The translations under genes and the position numbers were made by a program. Below are positions 35,481 to 37,256 of a stretch of 37,867 nt of DNA, in pieces; position 1 is the stretch's first letter, and the number at the start of each line of letters is the position of its first letter. This DNA is from Zestosphaera sp. (GTDB lineage Archaea; Thermoproteota; Thermoprotei_A; Sulfolobales; NBVN01), in contig JAVYVJ010000002.1 in assembly GCA_038727705.1 (NCBI GenBank), forward strand, positions 1 through 37,867. The letters run 5' to 3'. The notes under the pieces were generated by a model. It did not search any database. It was not told the DNA's origin and saw only the letters and a program-made list of their open reading frames with translations.

Positions 35481-36002
35481 CTATATTATCGTGGAAGGCT
35501 CCTTCCCGGATTTAGCCTTAGCTGGGATTATTGGGAACTCTTCGTTGAACGTTGAGACTATGGTGAAGAAGGAGTTAATCAGTACGTAGACACGTTCAAC
35601 AAACCTCGGCTTAAACCCCTCACTAACCTCATCTCTGAAGACCGCTTGAGCCACTGATATCGCCTGAGGGTCTACAGTGCTGGGTTGTACTACGACGTTG
35701 CATGCGGGACACATGCTGATGACTCTGCACATGAGTTTGGACGTGAACTTGAGAACCTCTTCAGGGCTCAGCTCGTTCAGTTTCCTCCTATGTTCAGGCG
35801 ACACTGCGACTCCTATCAGGAGGACATACCTGTCCTCCCTTCCCTCCGGTCTGAAGACCTTGAAGTTTATGTTCATGGGGGGCTGGGTGAAGACGTCCAG
35901 ACCCCAGACAACTTTGAAGGGTGGCTGAGGCTCCAGCCTCCGCACATTGAAGCCCTCCTCGATAAGCCATTTCTCCACCAGCTCGTCCGTGGATCCACTC
36001 AT
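35481..36002 (-). CDS. DUF2299-like protein
   Basis: This is a roughly 173-aa soluble protein with a helix (LVEKWLIEEGFNVRRLE), a beta stretch (NINFKVFRPEG, RYVLLIGVAVSPEHRRKL) and a helix carrying CRVISMCPACNV. The pattern resembles DUF2299 of crenarchaea, whose function is unknown. The frame reaches to GTG 36020, but ATG 36002 has the Shine-Dalgarno sequence GGTGA 7 nt upstream and a TTTATATAAC box near 36044-36053. It is transcribed divergently from the encapsulin gene across about 160 nt. Three cysteines (C-x5-C-x2-C) could bind a metal. Confidence 0.55.
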   Translation of the reverse strand: MSGSTDELVEKWLIEEGFNVRRLEPQPPFKVVWGLDVFTQPPMNINFKVFRPEGREDRYVLLIGVAVSPEHRRKLNELSPEEVLKFTSKLMCRVISMCPACNVVVQPSTVDPQAISVAQAVFRDEVSEGFKPRFVERVYVLINSFFTIVSTFNEEFPIIPAKAKSGKEPSTII

Positions 36003-36119
36003 CAAAACTTCACCAACCACGCCACGTGATAATACTCAGTAACGTTATATAAATAGTAGCTAATCGGCTGTAAGATGGCGGGAGTTGCGGAACGCTGGAT
36101 CCCCGCATAACCTTCGAAA

Positions 36120-36128
36120 GTATTTAAT
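36120..36128 (+). promoter_or_regulatory. TATA box of the encapsulin gene
   Basis: GTATTTAAT lies 34-42 nt before TTG 36162. A ribosome site GGTGAT at 36153-36158 lies between, so the mRNA should carry a short leader. Confidence 0.5.
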
Positions 36129-36161
36129 TTTTGATCACGCATTATACTATTTGGTGATAAC

Positions 36162-37256
36162 TTGATCGGGAAACATCCTCTAGAGTTACCGCCACCCAGG
36201 AAATTCAGCAAGGACGAGATGGCTGAGGCTTTAAGACTCTCTATAATAGCTGAGCTGGATGCCGTCAACACGTACCTACAGTTAGCCAGGCATTGCGAGG
36301 ACGAGGGTGTCAGGAAGCTATTCGAGGACATAGCTAAGGAGGAGAAGACGCATGTAGGCGAGTTCCTGGCGATGCTTAAGTCCTTAGATCCCGAGCAGGT
36401 CGCCGAACTTAAAGCCGGTGCTCAGGAGGTAAAGGAGCTGACAGGGGTCTCAGTTACTGAGGGAGATCCGCCTAAGGAGGAAGCCCTAAGCGAGGACAAC
36501 GTTTTGAAAGATCTGGGCGCTAGAGCTAAGGAGGTGGTTGAGTCGGCTAGAAGGTTACGGAGGGTGCTTGACGTAGTCCACGTGGGCAGGGGTGTTGAGG
36601 GGGTCCTGCTGGAGGGGGTCTCGGCTGAGGAGACCGCCAAGTCGAAGGTCGGTAGGGTCGTGATGCTCAGTGAGTTGAGCACGCAGTTCAGTATTAAGGT
36701 GAGGACGCTGGACTACTGGAGCAGGACAGGCGTCCAGCCGGACCTATCGTCCCTAGTGCTCGCCTCGACGAGGCTGGCTCTAGCCGAGGAGAGAGCGATA
36801 CTTGAAGGGGATTCTGAGAAAGGGTGGCCAGGCCTCCTAACATGCGGGATGAGCGTCAAGGAGGAGCTGAGCGACTGGAGTGTTCCAGGAAATCCAGTAG
36901 TGGACGTGTCAAAAGCGGTTAGAAGATTAATTAATGAAGCGATACCCCCACCCTACATAATGTTGGTGAATCCAGCAAGGTACGCAGACCTACTTAAGTA
37001 CACGGAGAAGGCAGGCGTCATGGAATTACAGAGGGTTAAAGCGTTAGTGAACGAGGTCGTCCAGACACCGCTACTGGACGACAATAACGTCCTCATCATA
37101 TCAACGAACAAACACATGATAGATCTGGTGGTCGGAGCTGACACAGTCCTTGACTATCTGGGGCCATCGGGAGATGAACATCTCTACAGACTTTGGGAAA
37201 CCCTAGCACTGAGAATCAAAAACCCGAAAGCCATCATCCACCTCACGAAGAAATGA
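36162..37256 (+). CDS. Encapsulin with N-terminal ferritin-like domain fusion
   Basis: This single 364-aa protein carries a ferritin-like (FLP) domain (about 17-72) joined by a flexible Glu/Lys-rich linker (about 73-108) to an HK97-fold encapsulin shell (about 109-364). The FLP helices hold Glu31 (IIAELDAVN) and Glu61-x-x-His64 (EEKTHVGEF), the iron-binding pattern of encapsulated ferritins. The shell region has SELSTQFSIKVRTLDYW, LASTRLALAEERAILEG and GWPGLLTCGMSV, typical of family 1 encapsulins. The arrangement matches the virus-like particle of Pyrococcus furiosus, in which cargo and shell are one chain. It should form a nanocompartment that oxidises and stores iron. It starts at TTG 36162 with the ribosome site GGTGAT. 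No separate cargo gene is visible. Confidence 0.9.
   Translation: MIGKHPLELPPPRKFSKDEMAEALRLSIIAELDAVNTYLQLARHCEDEGVRKLFEDIAKEEKTHVGEFLAMLKSLDPEQVAELKAGAQEVKELTGVSVTEGDPPKEEALSEDNVLKDLGARAKEVVESARRLRRVLDVVHVGRGVEGVLLEGVSAEETAKSKVGRVVMLSELSTQFSIKVRTLDYWSRTGVQPDLSSLVLASTRLALAEERAILEGDSEKGWPGLLTCGMSVKEELSDWSVPGNPVVDVSKAVRRLINEAIPPPYIMLVNPARYADLLKYTEKAGVMELQRVKALVNEVVQTPLLDDNNVLIISTNKHMIDLVVGADTVLDYLGPSGDEHLYRLWETLALRIKNPKAIIHLTKK

Follow-up and report, generated by a model that had tools for sequence, protein, structure and literature searches.

A Flp-fusion encapsulin gene from an uncultured Sulfolobales lineage

The window analysed here, a stretch of 37,867 nucleotides from Zestosphaera sp., carries a gene whose product joins an encapsulated-ferritin (FLP) domain to an encapsulin shell in one chain. 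On its sequence the gene is a Flp-fusion family 1 encapsulin, showing every sequence-level feature of the published class, and the protein is a clean new example of that class, ordinary for its group. We put the probability at about 0.9 that the chain acts as such an encapsulin, a self-assembling shell with the FLP inside that would oxidize Fe(II) and store the mineral; the FLP motif, linker and shell fold are drawn from sequence and a predicted model, assembly and function from analogy. Flp-fusion encapsulins, published between 2007 and 2021 (PMC8346489 and PMC11202242), carry an N-terminal Flp domain and are all archaeal, mostly crenarchaeotal (PMC8346489, Andreas and Giessen 2021). The gene, its parts and its divergent neighbour are as follows.

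35481..36020, − strand: DUF2299 gene, divergent neighbour, judged not to be part of the system (Pfam DUF2299, E 2.8e-29)
36110..36160, + strand: probable BRE/TATA-like element (gaaagtatttaattttt) and GGTGAT Shine-Dalgarno-like run, read from the sequence
36162..37256, + strand: Flp-fusion family 1 encapsulin gene, 364 amino acids, TTG start, TGA stop
36162..36446, + strand: FLP domain, residues 1-95 (Rubrerythrin, 5N5E, AF2 helices)
36447..36491, + strand: predicted flexible linker of about 15 residues, 96-110 (AF2 pLDDT <50 at 96-108)
36492..37253, + strand: predicted encapsulin shell (HK97 fold, Linocin_M18/encap_f1), residues 111-364 (Pfam, NCBIfam, AF2, Foldseek)

Two domains in one reading frame

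One uninterrupted open reading frame spans both domains, with the FLP in frame and N-terminal to the shell. The TTG start at 36162 is supported because residue 1 falls in an invariant methionine column across 31 aligned relatives, most of which open with M(L/M)SKHPL. By our own reading, an A/T-rich TATA-like box lies at about 36116-36128 and the GGTGAT run stands ahead of the TTG; 36110..36160 is thus a candidate archaeal promoter element, probably of the BRE/TATA-like kind.

The N-terminal part is matched by Pfam Rubrerythrin (residues 22-85, E 3.1e-9), by NCBIfam EncB_fam (E 2.7e-22, under its curated cut-off) and by the crystal structure of the Pyrococcus furiosus FLP, 5N5E (phmmer E 3.3e-30, residues 10-97), and AF2 places its helices at 17-43, 48-75 and 77-94. 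E31, E60, E61 and H64 are all present, the DxxxEExTH motif running from D56 to H64. The E31/E61-x-x-H64 site that the earlier note had called intact lies exactly where it was placed, and E31, E61 and H64 are invariant in an alignment of 61 fused and 45 stand-alone relatives. Ferroxidase residues of this type match those of the Fe-bound P. furiosus FLP (PMC11202242). A Sulfolobaceae Flp-fusion (L176, 963-2015, − strand) has lost the site through E61→K and H64→Q in a frame that is still open.

The shell domain, which opens with an N-terminal arm helix (111-129), is matched over residues 116-349 by Pfam Linocin_M18 (141 bits, E 4.6e-41), and NCBIfam encap_f1 scores 140.5 bits against a cut-off of 100. 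The closest relative of known structure is the P. furiosus particle (2E0Z), aligned by phmmer over residues 9-361 of 364 (E 3.2e-53); a sequence search of the PDB also matched the shell half to the encapsulins of Dendrosporobacter, Myxococcus and Quasibacillus. The AF2 model, a monomer built on an alignment of 31 fused proteins, has a mean pLDDT of 85.7; its FLP part consists of three helices, residues 96-108 are disordered and the shell is predicted with confidence. The best 50 Foldseek matches to it are all encapsulin shells, most with a TM score (target) of 0.8-0.9 (2E0Z, 0.89-0.90). The earlier note had proposed a fusion of the P. furiosus kind between an FLP and a complete HK97-type shell, and had suggested a profile search as a check. 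FLP- and encapsulin-family profiles both match far beyond chance, the complete shell is confirmed by Pfam, NCBIfam, AF2 and Foldseek, and the fusion is borne out by domain matches, homology to 2E0Z and the predicted fold.

The HK97 fold has viral origins, and in Thermoproteota phage-like capsids (L083 and L087) are matched by PF04454 as well. The gene could accordingly be read as the capsid gene of a relic or active provirus, one that has acquired a ferritin-like domain, rather than as a compartment serving the cell. Against this, PHROG gave no match for the encapsulin and, for the six neighbours tested, a single weak match (PfkB), no viral structural or packaging genes were found alongside the gene, and many families of Thermoproteota have retained the fusion with its ferroxidase site intact. 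The neighbour content and the PHROG search led us to reject a provirus origin, which we regard as extremely improbable, in favour of a Flp-fusion encapsulin.

Proposed assembly, iron chemistry and the linker

The P. furiosus and Sulfolobus members of the Flp-fusion class form T=3 shells (PMC8346489). By analogy with P. furiosus, the chains encoded here would form an icosahedral shell by self-assembly, probably T=3 with 180 chains, and the N-terminal FLP domains would point into its lumen. Fused and facing inside, the FLP would need no targeting peptide. The FLPs are expected to pair, in decamers or another oligomer, giving di-iron ferroxidase centres at dimer interfaces, as in 2E0Z, 5N5E and the reviewed systems (PMC8346489 and PMC11202242); Fe(II) would then be oxidized and ferric mineral deposited in the lumen.

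In the cell the protein is likely to store iron and to protect against oxidative damage driven by iron; this is supported by rubrerythrin, rubredoxin-type, ferritin-like, VIT1-rubrerythrin or flavodiiron genes beside relatives in several loci. The rubrerythrin- and flavodiiron-type neighbours can also be taken to favour a different role, in which the FLP serves as a structural scaffold or as some other metal or redox enzyme (for example, one that detoxifies peroxide or NO) rather than as an iron-storage ferroxidase. Many hosts are anaerobes, and the Sulfolobaceae fusion with the mutated site persists. We nevertheless consider a role of this kind unlikely: apart from that fusion the ferroxidase residues do not vary, they agree with those seen in the Fe-bound FLP of P. 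furiosus (PMC11202242), and the genome has no other ferritin.

How 180 tethered FLPs would be arranged in the shell is problematic because 18 decamers do not fit an icosahedron; this mismatch between 180 FLPs and D5 decamers has been noted as an open problem (PMC11202242). In the window protein the predicted linker contains GDPP at residues 101-104 (36462-36473), an instance of a recurrent form, (G/S/N)DPP. Among 61 distinct fused linkers, DPP occurs in 39 (0.9 expected) and DP in 49 (10.7 expected), the expectations coming from shuffling each linker and being uncorrected for relatedness. DPP is absent from the FLP and shell domains of the same fused proteins, and from the linkers of Thermococcales and Sulfolobaceae.

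Asp-Pro bonds are prone to chemical cleavage by heat and acid. From this follows a speculative idea, that DPP, conserved in the linkers of most Thermoproteota Flp-fusions, is a heat-labile tether: once the shell has assembled, growth temperatures of about 75-95 °C would cleave the Asp-Pro bond and free the FLPs inside the closed shell to form decamers. If true, it would remove the symmetry mismatch of 180 tethered FLPs and D5 rings. We hold it to be a long shot, and the lack of DPP in Pyrococcus counts against its holding generally. Literature searches for Asp-Pro cleavage in hyperthermophiles and for the structure of archaeal fused FLPs returned nothing past the known reviews. The linker and its DPP motif make testable the question of how fused FLPs form decamers in a shell of unfitting symmetry.

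Neighbouring genes

The neighbours of the encapsulin gene in the window are an AGOG glycosylase, PfkB, DUF2299, DUF5679 and a nuclease-like gene. The divergent gene, rightly recognized as DUF2299-like in the earlier note, had been suggested as a regulator or partner of the encapsulin, and it is adjacent and divergent both here and in two close relatives (L002 and L003). It is absent from the fetched flanks of every other encapsulin locus. Among 23 further genomes with both genes, drawn from a 300-genome sample and compared by hand on their coordinates, the two genes adjoin in none and lie no closer than about 29 kb; in G250, of the same family, DUF2299 is present and the encapsulin absent. With adjacency confined to two close relatives, the partner idea fails, and we give it almost no weight. 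A literature search on DUF2299 found nothing past the known reviews.

A ferritin-like gene is clustered beside the fused encapsulin at 16 of 82 loci, the cluster being defined by BLAST; of the two members that were scanned, only one gave a Rubrerythrin score (E 2e-5). Fewer fused loci adjoin a rubredoxin-type, rubrerythrin, VIT1-rubrerythrin or flavodiiron gene; at L082 a VIT1-rubrerythrin gene lies directly upstream of the fusion. Elsewhere on contig 2 of the window's own genome, at about 70.3-72.6 kb (L145), a flavodiiron-type gene overlaps a rubrerythrin-VIT1 iron transporter gene, a pair that lies about 34 kb from the encapsulin. The genome (98.6% complete) has no other PF00210 ferritin or Dps and no second FLP.

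Distribution, shell-less relatives and known systems

In a sample of 300 Thermoproteota genomes, 54 had a Linocin_M18 match. The 49 loci that we read (L082-L110 and L176-L195) comprise 46 intact fusions, one broken fusion (L195) and two capsids without an FLP (L083 and L087), and include no two-gene encapsulin system. Fusion is therefore the usual encapsulin type in Thermoproteota, to which the window adds a well-supported member from an uncultured Sulfolobales lineage. The description of such fusions as rare stands next to the two-gene systems of bacteria and does not carry over to this phylum. In the other archaeal phylum sampled there were 15 two-gene loci and six fusions like that of P. 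furiosus; the archaeal two-gene FLPs that we read end in a T(I/V)GSL(K/R) targeting peptide. The closest relatives of the window protein are from Sulfolobales metagenome-assembled genomes (L002, 82% identity; L003, 76%), the others being about 40-56% identical.

The Linocin_M18 matches at L083 and L087 resemble phage-type capsids; an XM1 gp53-like minor capsid gene neighbours L087, whose genome (G271) holds two Linocin_M18 copies. A fused-type gene at L163 (1498-2397, − strand), either a pseudogene or an assembly error, has an in-frame stop at the domain border. We considered it as an FLP and shell pair split by one stop, but two frameshifts are also present, and it therefore reads as a damaged fusion.

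FLPs also occur alone. We collected 45 stand-alone or broken-off FLPs (L037-L081), 50-71% identical to the window's FLP domain; the stand-alone ones are archaeal, with a few bacterial, and keep an intact ferroxidase site. No Linocin_M18 match was present in 43 of the 45 genomes. Four matches under bacterial titles (L073, L075, L079 and L081), considered as bacterial fusions, proved to be stand-alone FLPs with no shell. At L037 (2150-2230) the FLP frame ends in a DPP linker of the fused type, after which come the remains of linker and shell N-helix, riddled with stops, apparently a case in which the shell was lost and the FLP kept. Two solo FLPs of Archaeoglobi (L064 and L065) nest within the Thermococcales fused group.

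A single clade of fused FLP domains was rejected (AU test, p 0.0006, on a 94-column tree with long Sulfolobaceae branches), whereas a single clade of fused shells was not (support 91/64), and the fused shells may be one clade. On the simplest reading, an old fusion would have lost its shell more than once; transfer or repeated fusion may instead account for the pattern. Because FLP relatives persist without a shell, the shell may be non-essential to FLP activity. Why the same FLP survives shell-less, in places apparently after shell loss, becomes a testable question.

Compared with known systems, the window protein is closest in design to the P. furiosus particle (2E0Z; 5N5E), with which it shares domain order, ferroxidase residues and end-to-end homology, although the two are distant in sequence and the GDSEKGWPGLLT loop of the window shell contains additional residues. 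Its linker has GDPP, whereas those of the Thermococcales fusions lack DPP. With the Flp-fusions of Thermoproteota, including Sulfolobaceae, it shares its architecture, but it lacks the adjoining ferritin-like gene found at some of the fused loci. Shell-less short FLPs (s-FLP type) share the ferroxidase residues, with up to about 71% identity to the window FLP, and have neither shell domain nor targeting peptide. Finally, FLP and shell are both homologous to those of the two-gene FLP encapsulins (Myxococcus EncA/EncB and methanogens), whose cargo is encoded by a separate gene; in the window the cargo is fused and carries no targeting peptide, and this architecture, together with the lack of a second FLP in the genome, rules out a two-gene system.
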